Shown piece by piece: positions 51,686 through 64,000 of a stretch of 64,000 bases of DNA. The stretch lies in assembly GCA_035499655.1 (NCBI GenBank), contig DATJYL010000095.1, positions 1 through 64,000 on the forward strand, in the 5' to 3' direction. This DNA is from Pirellulales bacterium (lineage in GTDB: Bacteria; Planctomycetota; Planctomycetia; Pirellulales; JADZDJ01). A program made the position numbers and the translations under genes. Numbering within the stretch: position 1 is the first letter of the stretch; each line of letters starts with the position of its first letter. Below the pieces are notes generated by a model. The model saw only the letters and a list, made by a program, of their open reading frames with translations. It did no database searches and was not told the origin of the DNA.

Positions 51686-52669
51686 TTATTGCGCCGAAGA
51701 TTTTGTCCCGTGATCGGAGCCGCCGATCAGCACTCCCATCGGGAGCGGGCGGCCGGCCGTGGCAAAATCGAGCCGATGCAGCTCCTCCTTGAGTTGGAGG
51801 TAAGTTTCAAAGCTATCGGGATAGGTCCAGAGCGTGACCGTGGTGTCGTGGGGGCTGTGCAGTGCCAACGCCTGGTGAAATGCCGAAGTCGGCCGCATGG
51901 CCTGCTCAAACGTTTCGCCCTCCTGCGTGCCGGTGGGCACCACCTGGAATTCTTTTGCCCGCAGTCCGACGATGCGGCCGTGGTCGGCGACAATATCCAT
52001 GGTGTAGCGGAATTCGAAACCGTTCCGTGGCCCGACCACGCCGACGCGGTCGGCGATGTTGTTCAAATCCATGCCCGAGGTGCGAATATCGGAGCGTACG
52101 TCTTCGATGAAATCGTCCACGGGCACATAGGCGATGCGTCCGCCGAGCAATTGAAAATGCACTTCGTGCCCCAGCACGGTGCGACTGATGGGGGTGGGAT
52201 AATGGCGGATTTCTACGGTCGGCGGCTTCTGTGCTTCCAGGCCTTGCAGTTCGGCTTCGCCGCGCTCCAAGTCAGCCTGGCTTTCTTCCAACTGGCGACG
52301 CAGGTCGAAATCTTCCTGCTTTGAGGAATCGAGCTGCTCCCGGCGATCGCCGATTTCTTTTTCCGCGGCCGCAATCATCGTGGCCAGCGATTCGCGGGCG
52401 GCACTTTTGGCGCCGCTGTCGGCGTCGACCGCTTGCGCTTCCTGCCCAATGCGGCGTACGTCGTATTCGATGGAAGCAGCCTGCTTGCTCAGCGATTCCA
52501 ATTCTTCCGCAGAGGGTACTGGCGTCGTGGATGCCTGCACGATGGGGTTTTGGGCCCGCATGCCAACCACCATCACGAGAATGATGAGAATGCCGACGAT
52601 GTTGGTGGTGATGTCGAGGAACGAATCCTGACCGGCGTGTTCGATGTTGGTGTTATCGTTGCGCTGCAT
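51686..52669 (-). CDS. ExbD/TolR/MotB-like single-pass membrane protein, B subunit 1 of a putative motor
   Basis: A 327-residue protein. A short cytoplasmic N-terminus leads into one membrane helix (about 21-40, IVGILIILVMVVGM) with an aspartate at residue 19 (SFLDITTN), the position where ExbD/MotB-type proteins carry the proton-binding Asp. A coiled coil follows (about 56-145), then a soluble domain (about 155-320: EVHFQLLGGRIAYVPVDDF, DIRTSGMDLNNIADRV, GVLIGGSD). No peptidoglycan-binding OmpA domain. It follows the 859-residue protein at 52791 by about 120 bases on the same strand, and a TolQ/MotA-like gene lies beyond queD at 56318. Function of the complex unknown. Confidence 0.8.
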   Translation of the reverse strand: MQRNDNTNIEHAGQDSFLDITTNIVGILIILVMVVGMRAQNPIVQASTTPVPSAEELESLSKQAASIEYDVRRIGQEAQAVDADSGAKSAARESLATMIAAAEKEIGDRREQLDSSKQEDFDLRRQLEESQADLERGEAELQGLEAQKPPTVEIRHYPTPISRTVLGHEVHFQLLGGRIAYVPVDDFIEDVRSDIRTSGMDLNNIADRVGVVGPRNGFEFRYTMDIVADHGRIVGLRAKEFQVVPTGTQEGETFEQAMRPTSAFHQALALHSPHDTTVTLWTYPDSFETYLQLKEELHRLDFATAGRPLPMGVLIGGSDHGTKSSAQ

Positions 52670-52743
52670 GGGAGGGTGACGGGTGAGGGGTGAGGAGGTG
52701 AGGGGTGAAGAGAAGTAGGGTTCAGGGTTCAGGGTCGGCGGCG

Positions 52744-52759
52744 GCTAAACCGCAAGCGG
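52744..52759. repeat. Dispersed repeat GCTAAACCGCAAGCGG and nearby TGAGGGG units
   Basis: Exact copy of the unit at 5003-5018. Just before it, at 52680-52706, lie further TGAGGGG/TGAGGAGG units of the kind seen at 27513-27550. Both sit in the gap between the two ExbD-like genes. Confidence 0.7.
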
Positions 52760-52790
52760 TTGTACTGTCGACAGTCGTTAGCTTCGTTGT

Positions 52791-55370
52791 TTATTTTCGT
52801 TTCACGTCCCAGCCGCTGTCGGCCAGAAGGGTTTGTAAATCGGCGGCGCGGGCGTCGGCGTTGGGGTTCACGTTCAACACTAACTGCGGTTTCCAATACA
52901 TGCTGCGGCCGGCGATGCCCCAACTTTTGGTGTAGCTGCGTATCGCGCTCACCAGGGGATCGACGGAGTCTTCCGTCCGCGCGCCCAGCGGAATGACTTG
53001 GGCCTGCTGATCCCGGGTGTCGGGCACCAGCACGAGCCGATCGGGCCAGCATTCCACGCGGATGGGGCGATCAACAGGAATCGACGCAGTGCGACTGTTG
53101 GGCAACGCCCAATTGTGGCCACGATTTTTCGCCAGGCTGCGCGATGATGACGAAGAGCTTGATGATTGCTGGGTAGATGGATCGTATGAGGCCGCGTTTT
53201 GTTGCTGTTGGGGCGTGAGATCGAACGACATGGAAGGCGCGCCGGCGGGCATGTTGGGATCGCTGGAGCCGCCGAACATACTGCTAGATTGGCCGCCTGA
53301 AGACGATCCGCCACTGGACGAATCGCCGCCTGATGAAGACGACATTCCACCGCTGCCGCTACTCCCCGTACCGCCAGACGATGCCGAACCGCCGTAAGTG
53401 CCGTAGGCGGAACTGCCGCCCAATGGTCCGGTGCTAACCGCGTAGGGACCGCCGGAAGAGCCGGCGCTGGAATTTGCCGCGCCTGCTGCGCCCGCCGCGC
53501 CATTGGTGCCCGGCGAACCGGAACCAGAACCCGACGATGCGATACCGAAAACTGATGGGCCCGACGCAGAATTGGGCAATAATACGCCACCGTATTCGCT
53601 GGGAGTGCCGCCGTTCATTCCACGTTCGCCATTGGCCACGGTCGATGCAGCGCCATTGGCGAGATTCTGATTGCCACTGTTTCCTGTGCCAACGCCTGCG
53701 GTGCCATTGCCAAAACCGTTGCCGCTATTGCGGGCGCCGGCATAACGGGGTCCGACATTGTCGAATTCAGGGCCGCCGCCATTTGCGGAGCCACTGCCAT
53801 TAGCGGAGCCACTGCCATTTCCTGAGCCATTGCCGCCGGGGCCGGCCGCCAAATATCCGCTGCCGCCAGTGCCGCCCGGTTGATCGCCTGGGAAGCCAGG
53901 GCCAGTGGATAGTCCGCCACTGGGTGTTGGACCGCTTAACACCGTACCACTATTTGGTCCGCCGCCAATTAATGCAGAATTATTCGTGCCGTCGCCCGCC
54001 TGTCCATTTCCTGCCAGACCATTTCCAGAAGGAGCATTTCCAGCAGGGCCATTTCCATTAGGAGCAACGCCGTTTCCGCCTCCGTACATGCCGCCGCTGT
54101 TTAATCCGCTGCCGGAACCATTCGGGCCCGAACCGCTCATGCCTGAGGCACTGCCGCCAAAGGCGCTATTGCCGCCCAGATTTCCAGCGGGCACATTTCC
54201 CCCGTATGCTAGTGTGCCGCCAGCGTTATTTCCGCCGTTGGCGTAGCGATCGCCGTTGGGGTTGCCGCCACCGTATTGGTTGTTGCCGCCCCCTGTGAAG
54301 TTGCCGCCGCCACCGCGAACACCAGTTCGGCCAAAGCCGCCCAATGGATCGTCGGCAAACGGATCTTCGCCCAGGGACGGTCCACCGTCGCGCACCACGC
54401 CGCCGCGGAAAGGGGAAACGTGGTACTCCACTTTGCTCGATTTTCGGGCGAATAATTCGGGGCTGATTTTCGCGAGCCACTGCAACTGTTGCCGGGCGTC
54501 GGCGACGGCGCGCTCTTCTTGTTCTTTCAATTGCGGTTCGGGCTGCATGGGGAAATCGAGTTTCCAATTTTCCCCGACTAACTCGTAACCGAACTCGGCA
54601 TCCCACGACGACATGGCGTCGCGCACCAAATAATAGGCAATGATGCCATCGGGGCGAACCAAGAGCAGCGGGTAGGGCTCATTCGGCAAGTCAGGCGCGG
54701 GGCGCGGAGCGTTGCGCCAATATTCCTGCGCGGCCCGCAAGGCCGAGGCCAGCGGATTGCTGGGTCCGCCAGGTCCCAGGAAATCTTCCGGTTGGAAGAC
54801 AATTCCCTCGGGCTGCAAGATAACGCAGTCGGCGCGGCATTCGATGTAAATGGGGCGGCGGTTGGTTTTGTACATGCCCTCGAAGGGAACCACGGCATAG
54901 GCCGGCTGACGATTGGCGGAATCCATGTGGGCGCGCTGCAGATCTTTTTCCAATTGAATGCGCTGGGCGTTTAGTAGCGCGAGTTGTGTGCGGAGCTGAT
55001 CGCGCTGCGGATCGTTGTCGTGGCTGGCTTTCAATTCTTTACCCGCAGCGACGAGGGCCTGCAGGTGATCTTCCATTTCTCTTGTGGAATCTTCCACGCC
55101 GGCCAGCTTTTGACGGCTGGTTTCCAAATCGGCCAGAGTTTTTTCGCGGGAGCCTGTCAATTCCTGGATCCGCAGTTGCAGGTCTTCCTTGGCATCGACA
55201 AGCTCTTGCTGCTGGGCAGCCTTGCCCGCCATGCGCTTGGCCGGATGCAGCCGGGCTTCGCGATTGATGACGCCCAAAATGACGATCAGCGTGCCCATGG
55301 TGCACAGGAGCACGTCTAAGAGCGGCATCAAATTAACGGTGTGTGTTCCGGCGGCGGTGGAGCGGCTCAT
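52791..55370 (-). CDS. ExbD/TolR-like protein with giant Gly/Asn/Ser-rich region between two repeated domains, B subunit 2
   Basis: An 859-residue protein. One membrane helix (about 18-35, LLDVLLCTMGTLIVILGV) with aspartate at residue 19, as in ExbD/TolR and as in the 327-residue partner. Then a coiled coil (about 45-150), domain A (about 170-270, RPIYIECRADCVILQPE), a short coil, a low-complexity region of about 400 residues (325-750; runs of Gly, Asn, Ser, Pro) and domain B (about 765-859, RPIRVECWPDRLVLVPD), which repeats domain A. No known family beyond the N-terminus. Probably a membrane-anchored outward-facing subunit of the motor formed with the TolQ/MotA-like protein at 56318. The ATG at 55370 is the only good start. 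Confidence 0.78.
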   Translation of the reverse strand: MSRSTAAGTHTVNLMPLLDVLLCTMGTLIVILGVINREARLHPAKRMAGKAAQQQELVDAKEDLQLRIQELTGSREKTLADLETSRQKLAGVEDSTREMEDHLQALVAAGKELKASHDNDPQRDQLRTQLALLNAQRIQLEKDLQRAHMDSANRQPAYAVVPFEGMYKTNRRPIYIECRADCVILQPEGIVFQPEDFLGPGGPSNPLASALRAAQEYWRNAPRPAPDLPNEPYPLLLVRPDGIIAYYLVRDAMSSWDAEFGYELVGENWKLDFPMQPEPQLKEQEERAVADARQQLQWLAKISPELFARKSSKVEYHVSPFRGGVVRDGGPSLGEDPFADDPLGGFGRTGVRGGGGNFTGGGNNQYGGGNPNGDRYANGGNNAGGTLAYGGNVPAGNLGGNSAFGGSASGMSGSGPNGSGSGLNSGGMYGGGNGVAPNGNGPAGNAPSGNGLAGNGQAGDGTNNSALIGGGPNSGTVLSGPTPSGGLSTGPGFPGDQPGGTGGSGYLAAGPGGNGSGNGSGSANGSGSANGGGPEFDNVGPRYAGARNSGNGFGNGTAGVGTGNSGNQNLANGAASTVANGERGMNGGTPSEYGGVLLPNSASGPSVFGIASSGSGSGSPGTNGAAGAAGAANSSAGSSGGPYAVSTGPLGGSSAYGTYGGSASSGGTGSSGSGGMSSSSGGDSSSGGSSSGGQSSSMFGGSSDPNMPAGAPSMSFDLTPQQQQNAASYDPSTQQSSSSSSSSRSLAKNRGHNWALPNSRTASIPVDRPIRVECWPDRLVLVPDTRDQQAQVIPLGARTEDSVDPLVSAIRSYTKSWGIAGRSMYWKPQLVLNVNPNADARAADLQTLLADSGWDVKRK

Positions 55371-55667
55371 GCGGAAGGCAACTCGAAAAGCAAAATCACA
55401 AAGTCCGAAATGCTAGCACGGTGCGCGCGGACCTACCCCGGCGCATCTCGATCCACCTAAAGATCGGCTTAATCGGCAAAGTCGATGAAGCGAATCGCCC
55501 GCAGTATTGCTTTGCGGCGAAGCGCGGCAAACTGGGCAAATCGGTGGAGGTCATTACTCTTTTCGCAATCGGCAAGAATTGCCAAAGCGTTCCCGACTGC
55601 CCGACCGATACATACTGTCGCACCGGGTGGACTAGGCATCTTCGATGCTGACATCCCAGGGGGGACG

Positions 55668-55709
55668 CAGTCCGGGTCAGGTCCAAAAGGCCGCCCGGAC
55701 TGTTTTTAT
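55668..55709 (+). terminator. Terminator-like hairpin without a known upstream gene
   Basis: Perfect 9-base stem CAGTCCGGG/CCCGGACTG, with a smaller inner stem (GGTCC-AAAA-GGCC), followed by TTTTTATTT. In the reverse direction no T-run follows the stem, so it is directional and should stop a rightward transcript from 55400-55660. Confidence 0.7.
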
Positions 55710-55725
55710 TTGACAAGCATGTAAG

Positions 55726-55773
55726 TTGTCAGTTGTCCGTTGCGACTGACGACGGACAATGGACGACTGACAA
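55726..55773. repeat. Inverted repeat ending at the queD stop codon
   Basis: Arms 55726-55742 (TTGTCAGTTGTCCGTTG) and 55757-55773 (CAATGGACGACTGACAA) match at 15 of 17 positions. The right arm ends at 55773; the queD stop codon starts at 55774. Built from TTGTC/GTCC units similar in style to the other heptameric repeats. Confidence 0.8.
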
Positions 55774-56178
55774 TTATGCACTGCGATAAGTTGCATAACA
55801 GCGTGGGGTTTCCCACAAATGGGTTTCGACGACTGGGAACCCGCGCTGGGCAGTGAATTCGAAAATGAGTTTGGCGATGTTTTCGGCCGTGGGATTGGCG
55901 TCGATGATGTGCAGCGGCTCGCCGAGTTTTTGGAGCAGCGGCACGGCCGGATCGTCGCGGCACAAAATCATGCGGTGATCAAGCGTTTCGTCAATCCAGT
56001 GGCTGACGACCTGTTTGATGTCGGAGAAATCTAACACCATGCCGCGGGAATCCAACGCCGCCGCTTCCAACACAATGACGGCCCGACCGTTGTGGCCGTG
56101 CAAGTGCCGGCATTTGCCGTCGTAATTGAGTAGCCGATGGCCGTAACAAAAATCGATTTCGCGAGTAACACGGAACAT
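55774..56178 (-). CDS. queD: 6-carboxy-5,6,7,8-tetrahydropterin synthase QueD
   Basis: A 134-residue zinc enzyme of the PTPS fold making 6-carboxytetrahydropterin from dihydroneopterin triphosphate for queuosine synthesis. Zinc ligands H14, H27 and H29 and the catalytic C23 (CRHLHGHN) are present; ENIAKLIFEF and the C-terminal WETP fit QueD rather than folate-type PTPS. Length is typical. Its partner queC lies at 57908 on the same strand, with the TolQ/MotA-like gene between them on the other strand. The next gene to the right diverges from it by 139 bases. Confidence 0.93.
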   Translation of the reverse strand: MFRVTREIDFCYGHRLLNYDGKCRHLHGHNGRAVIVLEAAALDSRGMVLDFSDIKQVVSHWIDETLDHRMILCRDDPAVPLLQKLGEPLHIIDANPTAENIAKLIFEFTAQRGFPVVETHLWETPRCYATYRSA

Positions 56179-56317
56179 AAGGCTCGATCAGTAAATCCAG
56201 GATCTGATAGTAAATTAAAGTGCGACAGCATTCGATTGTAGCACTGGCAGTATTGACATAGATAGTCGGCCGTTTTGAACTTCCCATGTTTGCCACGCAT
56301 GCAAAAGGTGGTGCGTT

Positions 56318-57601
56318 ATGACCAGCACACAAAACAAACAGAAAAAAGCATTGCCTGATTGGGTCGATTTGCCGATGGCGGTGGCCGCGCTGTTGACGGT
56401 GGCTTTTTACGTGATTGTGTACCGCGAATTCCCGAAGGGTTCGCTCATCCATCGCTATACGACAGAGCACGTGGTCGAGTACGTGGTGGTGGCGTTTTTC
56501 ATCTGGGGCATTGTGGATGTCGTCTTCAAGCTGTGCGGCTTTCCTTTGGAAGTGCTGGCGCTAAGGCAACCCGGCCTGCCGGAGCGAAACGGCAAAGAAC
56601 CGGTAGCGAATGCCCGGGCCTTATATGCCCAACTGCTCGGCCGGCCCAAGTGGTTTTTGGATTCCCGCTATGGGCAGCGGCTGGCCAAGGCGCTGGGTTA
56701 TTTGCAAGAAAAAGAATCGGCCGACGGATTCCACGATTACCTGCGCTATTTGGCCACGCAGGACGAAGAAAAAACGCACGGCAATTACGGATTGGTGCGA
56801 TTCATTTGCTGGGTGGCTCCGGTGCTAGGCATTTTGGGCACGGTCATTCACTTCGGCTCGGCCTTCGGCGGGCTGTCTGTCGACGAAATCGGCGATAACC
56901 TGGCGAAAGTGGTGGGCGAAATCGGTACGGCATTCAACACCACCACGGTCGCTTTGGCTGCCGCCATCACGATGATGTTCAGCCTGTTCATGTGCGAAAA
57001 GACGGAGCGCGGAATCATTCATTCGATCAGCCGGCGTGTCGATTTAGAGCTGCTCAACCGCTTCGAAGTGACCGACGAAAGCCTGACGCCCTTTTTGCAG
57101 GCCGTGCAAGTAGGAAACCAGGCCACGCTGACGGCGCTGGATTCCCGGTTGGAAAAACAGTTGCAAATTTGGGCCTCGGCCTTTACACGCTTGCAGCAGG
57201 AAAGCGACAAGCGGCTGCAAACACACGGACAAATGTGGGAACAATCGCTCAGCAAAATGCACGCGCAATTTGAGCACAGCGATACGCAGCGCGAGCAAAA
57301 ACTGCTCAAGCTGCTAAGCGAAATGCAATTGCAACGCACCGAGCAAAAATCGCAGGGCCAGGCGATGCTGAACCAAATGACCGGTCTGCAAACTCACTTT
57401 GCCCAGTTGGTGGAAGCGCTGGCCGGTTTGAACCGCGGCGAAAGCGAGCTGGCGAAATCGCAACAATTGCTGGCGCAAAATCTGCAAGGCATTCGCGAAA
57501 CGGGACATCTCGATCAGGCGTTGCACGGCCTGACGGCGGCCATTCACTTGCTGACCGCGCGACATGATTTGGATCCGAAAAAAGCCAGCCGGGCGGCGTG
57601 A
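56318..57601 (+). CDS. MotA/TolQ/ExbB-like proton channel subunit with long coiled-coil tail
   Basis: A 427-residue membrane protein. Four predicted helices: about 18-36, 52-72, 158-184 and 201-226. The last two carry the MotA/TolQ/ExbB signature (GLVRFICWVAPVLGILGTVIHFG; EIGTAFNTTTVALAAAITMMFSLFM), where the Thr-rich face lines the ion path. A cytoplasmic region of about 85 residues separates helices 2 and 3. Residues about 230-427 form a long coiled-coil tail (LQIWASAFTRLQQESDKRLQ, QREQKLLKLLSEMQLQ), like the tail of Zorya ZorA but without the other Zorya genes. Likely partners are the two ExbD-like proteins at 51686 and 52791. Divergent from queD. Confidence 0.88.
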   Translation: MTSTQNKQKKALPDWVDLPMAVAALLTVAFYVIVYREFPKGSLIHRYTTEHVVEYVVVAFFIWGIVDVVFKLCGFPLEVLALRQPGLPERNGKEPVANARALYAQLLGRPKWFLDSRYGQRLAKALGYLQEKESADGFHDYLRYLATQDEEKTHGNYGLVRFICWVAPVLGILGTVIHFGSAFGGLSVDEIGDNLAKVVGEIGTAFNTTTVALAAAITMMFSLFMCEKTERGIIHSISRRVDLELLNRFEVTDESLTPFLQAVQVGNQATLTALDSRLEKQLQIWASAFTRLQQESDKRLQTHGQMWEQSLSKMHAQFEHSDTQREQKLLKLLSEMQLQRTEQKSQGQAMLNQMTGLQTHFAQLVEALAGLNRGESELAKSQQLLAQNLQGIRETGHLDQALHGLTAAIHLLTARHDLDPKKASRAA

Positions 57602-62034: not shown

Positions 62035-62105
62035 CGAGGCCGCAGCGTCCAACCTCCAAGAAAGTTACCCTGAGCATACCCTGGTTGTGGGAAACGGAGG
62101 ATTCC

Positions 62106-64000
62106 ATGAAATGCTGCCAGCCGATTCGATTTGCCGTTGCTATCACGCTCGTCTCCTTACTCGTTCCCGCGATTGCCGCGGCCCAAGGGGTGCTCATCAA
62201 TATCAACGAAGGCGACCACGTGATTCTGCCGCGGCCGCCGATCATTATCGAGCCAGGCCCTTGGCCGCACCCACGTCCGCAACCAGAACCGTCCAGCTAC
62301 AAAATCAAATCGTTGGAGGTGAATGTCAAACTCGACGGTCAAATTGCCCGCGTGCAAACCAGCCAATTGTTTGTGAACACAGGCAGCCGGCCGATGGAAG
62401 TTTGCTTTGTGTTTCCGCTGCCTTACGACGGGGCGGTCGATCAGCTCACCTTGCAGATCGACGGGCAGGAATATCCGGCGAAGCTGCTCGATGCCAAAGA
62501 TGCGCGGCGGATGTACGAGGACATTGTCCGAAAAAATAAAGACCCCGCGCTGCTGGAATGGATGGGCACGGGCTTGTTCAAAACGAGCGTGTTTCCGGTG
62601 CCTCCGGGGGGCGAGCGGAAAGTGACGCTGCGCTATTCGCAATTGTGCCGGCAATGGGACGGGCTGACCGATTTTATCTTCCCGCTTAGCACGGCCAAAT
62701 ACACTTCGCAGCCGGTGGATGAAATCAAATTCCAGGCGGCCATCGAAAGCGACGCCGACATCAAGAACGTCTACAGTCCCAGCCACGCCGTCGACATCAA
62801 GCGGCCCGACGCCAAGCACGCCCTCATCAGCTACACGGCCAAAAGCACGGTGCCGACGGACGACTTTCGCTTGTTTTACGACGTGGGAAAAGATTTGGTC
62901 GGCACGCGCATTCTCAGCTACCGGCCCGATGCGGGTGAAGACGGTTACTTTTTGCTGCTGACCAGTCCGCAAATCAAGGCCGGCGATGCGGCCGCGGCCA
63001 AAAAAACCGTAGTGCTGGCGATCGATCGTTCCGGCAGCATGAGCGGTGAAAAAATCGACCAGGCCAAAGCCGCCGCCAAGTTCGTCGTCGAGCATTTGCA
63101 CGAGGGGGATTTATTCAACCTGATTGCATACGACAGCGACGTGGAAAGTTGGAAGCCGGAGTTGCAAAAATTCGACGACGACAGCCGGAAAGCCGCCGTT
63201 GGCTTTATCGAAGGCATTTACGCCGGCGGCAGCACCAACATCAACGGCGCGCTGGGCACGGCACTGTCGCAATTGCATGATGCCGGGCGGCCGAACTTCG
63301 TCATCTTTCTGACCGACGGCATTCCCACCGTCGGCGAAACCAACGAAAGTAAAATTATCGCCAATGCCAAAGCCAATAATACGGTGCGGGCCCGCATTTT
63401 CGATTTTGGCGTTGGTTACGACGTGAACAGCCGCCTTTTGGATAAGCTGGCCCGCGAGAATTTCGGACTGACTGAATATGTGCGGCCCAACGAGAACATT
63501 GAAGGGGCGGTGGCGGCGCTTTACAGCCGCATTGGCTCGCCGGTGATGACGGGCGTGAAGCTGACGGTTGACGTCGATGGCCTCAAGCCGGAAGACGGGT
63601 CGGTGGTGAACCGGGTTTATCCCAAAGATGTGTTCGATTTGTTCGCCGGCGAGCAGTTGGTAATGGTAGGGCGCTACAAAAAATCAGGTGCTGCGAAAAT
63701 TACCATCACCGGCCATGTTGGCGACGGCGCTAGTGACAACGCCGAACAGAAATTCGACTTTCCCGCGAACTTGGTGGATCACAGCGCGGATGAATCGCAA
63801 GCCTTCATCGAAAAACTGTGGGCCGTACGGCGGGTGGGCGAAATTCTGGACGAGATCGATTTGAACGGCCGCAACGAAGAACTGGTGAAAGAATTAGTTT
63901 CACAGTCGCTGAAGCACGGCATCATCACGCCGTACACTTCGTTCCTGGCCGACGAAAACGGAGGGCGCGATTTAGCATCGGACGCCAAAGAGGCAGGCGT
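62106..64000 (+). CDS. VIT and von Willebrand factor A domain protein, C-terminus beyond the window
   Basis: An open frame of at least 631 residues, running off the right end. Signal peptide (about 1-26), Pro-rich linker, then a VIT domain (about 60-200; RVQTSQLFVNTGSRPMEVCF, YPAKLLDAKDARRMYEDIV, KTSVFPVPPGGERKVTLRYS), and a VWA domain (about 300-480) with an intact metal-ion site DRSGSMS and later VIFLTDG. This is the layout of inter-alpha-trypsin-inhibitor heavy-chain-like proteins, widespread in planctomycetes and thought to bind proteins or matrix at the surface. The ATG at 62106 has GGAGG 5 bases upstream. Confidence 0.95.
   Translation, partial: MKCCQPIRFAVAITLVSLLVPAIAAAQGVLININEGDHVILPRPPIIIEPGPWPHPRPQPEPSSYKIKSLEVNVKLDGQIARVQTSQLFVNTGSRPMEVCFVFPLPYDGAVDQLTLQIDGQEYPAKLLDAKDARRMYEDIVRKNKDPALLEWMGTGLFKTSVFPVPPGGERKVTLRYSQLCRQWDGLTDFIFPLSTAKYTSQPVDEIKFQAAIESDADIKNVYSPSHAVDIKRPDAKHALISYTAKSTVPTDDFRLFYDVGKDLVGTRILSYRPDAGEDGYFLLLTSPQIKAGDAAAAKKTVVLAIDRSGSMSGEKIDQAKAAAKFVVEHLHEGDLFNLIAYDSDVESWKPELQKFDDDSRKAAVGFIEGIYAGGSTNINGALGTALSQLHDAGRPNFVIFLTDGIPTVGETNESKIIANAKANNTVRARIFDFGVGYDVNSRLLDKLARENFGLTEYVRPNENIEGAVAALYSRIGSPVMTGVKLTVDVDGLKPEDGSVVNRVYPKDVFDLFAGEQLVMVGRYKKSGAAKITITGHVGDGASDNAEQKFDFPANLVDHSADESQAFIEKLWAVRRVGEILDEIDLNGRNEELVKELVSQSLKHGIITPYTSFLADENGGRDLASDAKEAG

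Follow-up and report, generated by a model that had tools for sequence, protein, structure and literature searches.

Probable ion-driven motor encoded by a three-gene PF01618 membrane system in one class of Planctomycetes

Introduction

Models of 5:2 ion-driven rotary motors place two equivalent helices in the axle, each with an acid, and the two are used in turn. The ring protein ZorA of the Zorya system carries a long cytoplasmic helical tail. In the AglRQS gliding motor of Myxococcus xanthus, the TolQ-like AglR is encoded in one cluster with two unlike ExbD/TolR-like proteins, AglQ and AglS (PMC3169522). Loci of the PVC group also combine one ring gene with two unlike axle genes (PMC12204202). 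In a survey of MotAB relatives, the B partners were inferred from gene proximity, sequence search having failed (PMC12505986); this failure fits the missing family models for the two B proteins described below.

Here we analyse a three-gene PF01618 membrane system found in one class of Planctomycetes, for which an A-ring/B-axle motor is the best reading. The window is the whole stretch of Pirellulales DNA that was analysed (64,000 nucleotides), and the features under study are as follows.

56318-57601, + strand: A subunit (type 2), MotA/TolQ/ExbB-like, 427 aa; assigned from a PF01618 match of 49.2 bits (cut-off 22.9), transmembrane (TM) helices, column comparison and 58/58 relatives
55774-56178, - strand: queD (6-pyruvoyl tetrahydropterin synthase, PF01242), a housekeeping gene that separates A from B2 in the window's family, outside the motor
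55565-55712, + strand: conserved unannotated intergenic element, divergent from the B2-B1 operon
52791-55370, - strand: B2 subunit, 859 aa; TM helix 17-35 with a derived Asp19, coiled coil, two globular domains and a linker
51686-52669, - strand: B1 subunit, 327 aa; TM helix 17-35 with an invariant Asp19, coiled coil 54-146 and a conserved periplasmic domain at about 165-320

Comparison with described systems

The locus resembles AglRQS in having one ring protein with two different B proteins. AglQ (162 aa) and AglS (194 aa) match PF02472, whereas B1 and B2 do not, and AglR has 245 aa compared with the 427 aa and long tail of A. The two systems also differ in their surroundings, as the recurring neighbours of A, B2 and B1 are housekeeping genes, and an acid-less B protein is not mentioned in the available part of the AglRQS account (PMC3169522). 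The PVC loci likewise belong to Planctomycetes and their relatives and have one A with two unlike B genes; they differ from the A/B2/B1 unit, which is without a recurring TPR or vWA neighbour. In many Pirellulales (L355-L366), two or three unlike canonical ExbD genes stand in tandem, with Asp in all copies read, and the pairs among them may correspond to the PVC loci. A second A-B-B operon family occurs both in Pirellulales and in a different family of the same phylum (L158, L159, L160, L386 and L387); it combines an Asp-bearing B (DSLLDT) with an acid-less B that has Ser (LFPFLSVLACVIG).

With TolQRA and ExbBD-TonB, the system shares a PF01618 ring with the GTV and second-helix Thr motifs and, in the window form, Asp in both B helices. 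It differs in the long tail and four TM helices of A; the Glu found in E. coli TolQ and ExbB three residues before Leu-Ile-Ala-Thr has no Glu counterpart in A in the alignment; and the B families of those systems are unrelated to B1 and B2 by profile search. Two features of 5:2 motors are present in the window: a PF01618 A with conserved pore motifs, and a single N-terminal TM helix with an acid in both B1 and B2.

Zorya ZorAB is similar in the long helical tail of its ring protein, and A matches the PADLOC ZorA2 model weakly (16.4 bits) over the pore and tail. The first-pass annotation had stated that Zorya genes are absent from the vicinity, and this agrees with a PADLOC scan of 10 neighbours, which found no zorC, zorD, zorE or other defence partner and returned only QueC-type housekeeping matches. 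Unlike a patchy defence system, A/B2/B1 occurs in every genome of the order. A defence role was rejected because no partner genes were found among these neighbours.

Gene linkage and neighbourhood

The expectation of the first-pass annotation that A, B1 and B2 would occur and lie together in other genomes held. Within the order Pirellulales, A and B2 were each found in 58/58 genomes and B1 in 56/58, and the two absent B1 genes would lie past contig ends. This co-occurrence is far beyond chance. In 45/58 genomes A and B2 share a strand of one contig and the gene order is A-B2-B1, contig breaks limiting statements of distance in several genomes, and in 31/58 the A and B2 reading frames have a 4-base overlap where A ends and B2 begins. 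B2 relatives are present in 173/199 genomes of the class. In six other families of the class B1 adjoins B2, and A lies beside both except in one family (f111), where no A was recognised. The matching records include Pirellulales, Planctomycetaceae, Thermoguttaceae and the like. The unit that is conserved comprises these three genes and no others. Several genomes with the type-2 form of A described below carry A on a separate contig, and in these the genes are linked by shared content only.

In the window, A is on the opposite strand and queD lies between A and B2; the three genes are therefore not one operon here, unlike in most relatives. queD also separates A from B2 in two other loci (L123 and L124). 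The recurring neighbours, as called by a first-pass gene caller that may miss small genes, are housekeeping genes only, namely queD, queC, a class-III aminotransferase, SAM-HAT and gatAB. A conserved cargo gene near A/B2/B1 was rejected for this reason, and the neighbourhood did not yield the third-party cargo envisaged at first pass. At the far end of the window, a VIT/von Willebrand A domain protein is encoded at 62085-63998 on the + strand and runs off the window end.

The A subunit

The 427-residue protein had been described at first pass as TolQ/MotA/ExbB-like with a tail of about 200 residues, which the PF01618 match and the make-up of the tail confirm. The four hydrophobic helices are at 16-34, 52-70, 159-177 and 208-226, and the fourth is followed by 188 helical, cytoplasmic residues, which are Leu/Gln-rich with only 2 Pro. 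In the alignment of A, P168, G171, G174, T175, F206 and T208 are invariant and T209 is conserved in at least 90%, and these pore motifs align with the GTV and second-helix Thr motifs of TolQ and ExbB. The best match to a solved structure is 8vvi (E 5.5e-5), covering the pore and the tail.

Two types of A can be told apart. The window's A is of type 2, which is marked by His178-Phe179-Gly180 after the GTV motif and by Asn207 in AFNTT. At the same columns, type-1 A has Gly-Ile-Thr and, in most cases, Asp207. Of the type-2 marks, His178 is the most constant. The window genome has two further PF01618 genes, each adjoining a canonical ExbD gene.

The B1 and B2 subunits

Each B protein has a single TM helix (17-35) with Asp19 at its start, and the two helices are homologous with the register kept at position 19 (profile match prob 93.4, E 2.4e-7). 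Neither protein reaches the cut-off of PF02472 or of another Pfam or NCBIfam family, so the label 'ExbD/TolR-like' given at first pass rests on architecture. The AlphaFold model of B1 is confident (mean pLDDT 85) and shows, in order, the TM helix, a long coiled coil, a periplasmic strand-strand-helix, a strand-rich insert and a strand-helix-strand. The B2 model begins with the TM helix and a coiled coil; two small domains follow, separated by about 400 residues that are modelled with very low confidence. In the sequence these are globular domain 1 (about 160-290), a disordered Gly/Ser/Asn linker of 406 residues (334-739; 31% Gly, 17% Ser and 10% Asn) and globular domain 2 (about 745-859). What had been taken for a giant low-complexity surface domain is thus predicted to be a disordered linker between two small globular domains. 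Domains 1 and 2 match in profile comparison (prob 89.7, E 1.8e-6), so B2 carries an internal duplication bridged by the linker.

The predicted order of the periplasmic elements agrees with the beta-beta-alpha-beta-alpha-beta order of ExbD/TolR, B1 having an insertion and B2 carrying the set twice, but Foldseek with the AlphaFold models of B1 and B2 gave no significant match (nothing at E <= 0.001). Profile comparison of the B1 and B2 periplasmic domains with ExbD/TolR was also not significant, and searches of solved structures with the B1 and B2 profiles returned coiled-coil matches only. The modelled linker and terminal domain suggest that B2 may also be a force arm.

At position 19, B1 has Asp in 132/132 readable relatives, where gene starts were set by rule and a few N-termini are cut. 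B2 usually reads LFPFLAVLLCTMG, which has Ala in place of the Asp of the window B2, and in other families of the class B2 has Ala, Ser or Thr where the helix is readable. The acid-less B2 is the class-wide state. As a control, Asp is kept in 25/25 canonical tandem-group ExbD copies from the same genomes. An aspartate in each B, proposed at first pass as the defining trait, therefore fails as such, the great majority of B2 relatives being acid-less and mostly with Ala. The window has Asp19 in both B1 and B2; in relatives, a B2 acid is found only with type-2 A.

Co-variation of ring type and the B2 acid

We compared the two traits in a widened sample from which duplicates had been removed (including L197 and L228, repeat records of type-2 genomes that carried a type-1 label). 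B2 has an acid in 16/17 type-2 rows (15 Asp and one Glu, the latter in G046), the exception being the Ser of G038. None of the 95 type-1 rows has one (94 Ala, one Ser). In quick maximum-likelihood trees, in which some rows are long-branched, type-2 A is a single clade with support 100, and on the B1+B2 tree with TM columns excluded it needs 7 changes, all forced by well-supported branches. Type-2 A is spread in this way over about seven separate B1/B2 lineages, the window's and at least six others. Independent pairs (n=7) were concordant in 6.5 cases on average and discordant in none (sign test p 0.016-0.031). Among the genomes sampled no type-2 A was found outside the order, where the best match (E 2.6e-40) is at the type-1 level.

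The association of A type and B2 acid could be due to common ancestry or to chance and lack any mechanistic basis. The independent events are few (7), the sign test reaches only p about 0.02-0.03 and G038 is an exception. However, the B tree forces the 7 changes on well-supported branches, no pair runs in the opposite direction and one lineage (G046) has Glu instead of Asp, and we regard this explanation as very improbable.

Remains of the older ring gene are found at several loci. In at least four type-2 genomes (G513, G572, G624 and G566), a decayed type-1 A that has lost the GT and AFDTT motifs adjoins B2, and in G513 and the three genomes of genus g358 that were read, type-2 A is present elsewhere or upstream. 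The decayed genes are at L310, L307 and L309 (g358) and at L304 (G513). Those of the three g358 genomes group in the A tree with the type-1 A of their own family and still end in a type-1-like helical tail; as the tail is kept where the pore motifs are lost, it may have a separate role. The simplest history would be the horizontal arrival of type-2 A, the gain of the B2 acid and the decay or loss of the old A, in an order of steps that we infer. Change counts alone do not separate gain from loss of the acid, but the class-wide acid-less B2 favours gain.

Asp207 of the ring was considered as direct compensation for the missing B2 acid and rejected as a general rule. Type-1 rings without Asp207 also occur with an Ala in B2 (L198, L215, L226, L238 and G044), and other A-B-B operons with a ring Asp (FDTT) have Asp in both B proteins (L156, L161 and L162). 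Because of these counter-examples, Asp207 is not a simple substitute for the B2 acid.

An acid at the B2 position equivalent to the B1 Asp matches the change of ring, which argues that the B2 helix lies in the ion path and hence for a mixed B1/B2 axle. Such a mixed pair is also what the joint evolutionary changes of A and B2 favour. The motor with a heterodimeric B pair proposed in the first-pass annotation is partly supported, by the co-location of one A with two unlike B proteins and by these joint changes; the aspartate in each B as a defining trait and the surface domain are not supported.

Two other arrangements have to be weighed against a mixed axle. B1 homodimers could form the axle of an ordinary A5B2 motor, with B2 as a TolA/TonB-like transducer whose TM helix docks outside the ring. 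The layout of B2 (one TM helix, a long linker and a C-terminal globular domain), its acid-less TM helix in most relatives and the invariant B1 Asp would all fit. This arrangement is rather unlikely in our view, since B1 and B2 have homologous TM helices that keep the same register, and B2 acids that fall exactly at the Asp19-equivalent and follow ring type are difficult to account for if the helix lies away from the ion path. Alternatively, two motors, A5(B1)2 and A5(B2)2, could draw on a common ring pool, the B2 form being a regulatory or silent stator where it lacks the acid and a second, active motor where the ring is of type 2. In these genomes B genes often occur in tandem, and the coiled coils in B1 and in B2 could each homodimerise. 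We judge it improbable, however, as A, B2 and B1 are conserved one-to-one with tight gene coupling, and a permanently acid-less homodimer retained across the class would be an odd motor.

An intergenic element upstream of B2

The conserved element consists of a GGCAA-N3-TTGCCAAAG box, a CCGATA box, a variable part, TCCCAGGGGGGA and a terminator-like CAGTCCGG..CCGGACTG-T run, whose hairpin shows some two-sided changes. It was found in 29/69 of the order region loci searched. In type-1 loci it lies 160-370 bp from the first gene of the motor operon, and examples upstream of the operon are L123 7032-6887, L229 5646-5452 and L306 5773-5940. It matches no Rfam family and is possibly a small RNA with its own promoter. 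A 106-aa ORF just upstream of B2 (55396-55716) has no resemblance to A and overlaps the element.

Proposed motor and its implications

On balance, we think it probable that the system, found across the class, is related to the 5:2 ion-driven rotary motors, with A, B1 and B2 in one mixed motor and B2 as its force arm. The ring would be formed by five A subunits and the axle by one B1 helix and one B2 helix (5:1:1). B1 would supply the ion-binding Asp in every member, and B2 the second axle helix, whose ancestral acid-less state would leave a single ion site in the axle. The periplasmic half of B2, with its two small globular domains and long disordered linker, probably spans the periplasm and passes force to the envelope, a job that would elsewhere be that of TolA or TonB. 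In the lineage of the window, an incoming type-2 ring may have displaced the operon's own ring while B2 gained Asp19, giving a two-acid axle as in ExbBD, TolQR and MotAB. The motor would be driven by ion flux and would rotate.

More tentatively, and with somewhat more doubt than assurance, we propose that most Planctomycetia have an obligately asymmetric A5-B1-B2 motor with a one-acid axle, which some lineages have repeatedly converted to two acids while exchanging the ring. The limited set of literature searched contained no description of an acid-less B partner that is conserved, or of the repeated conversion of one. If this proposal is true, the two-acid cycle put forward for 5:2 motors is not required, as a class-wide motor in which only one of the two axle proteins bears an acid would suggest that a single site is enough. 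The lineages that show the second acid together with a new ring would be a natural experiment on which ring residues pair with which axle. Finally, a probable function could be assigned to B1 and B2, two conserved families that lack a Pfam model, in bacteria with a poorly understood envelope biology.
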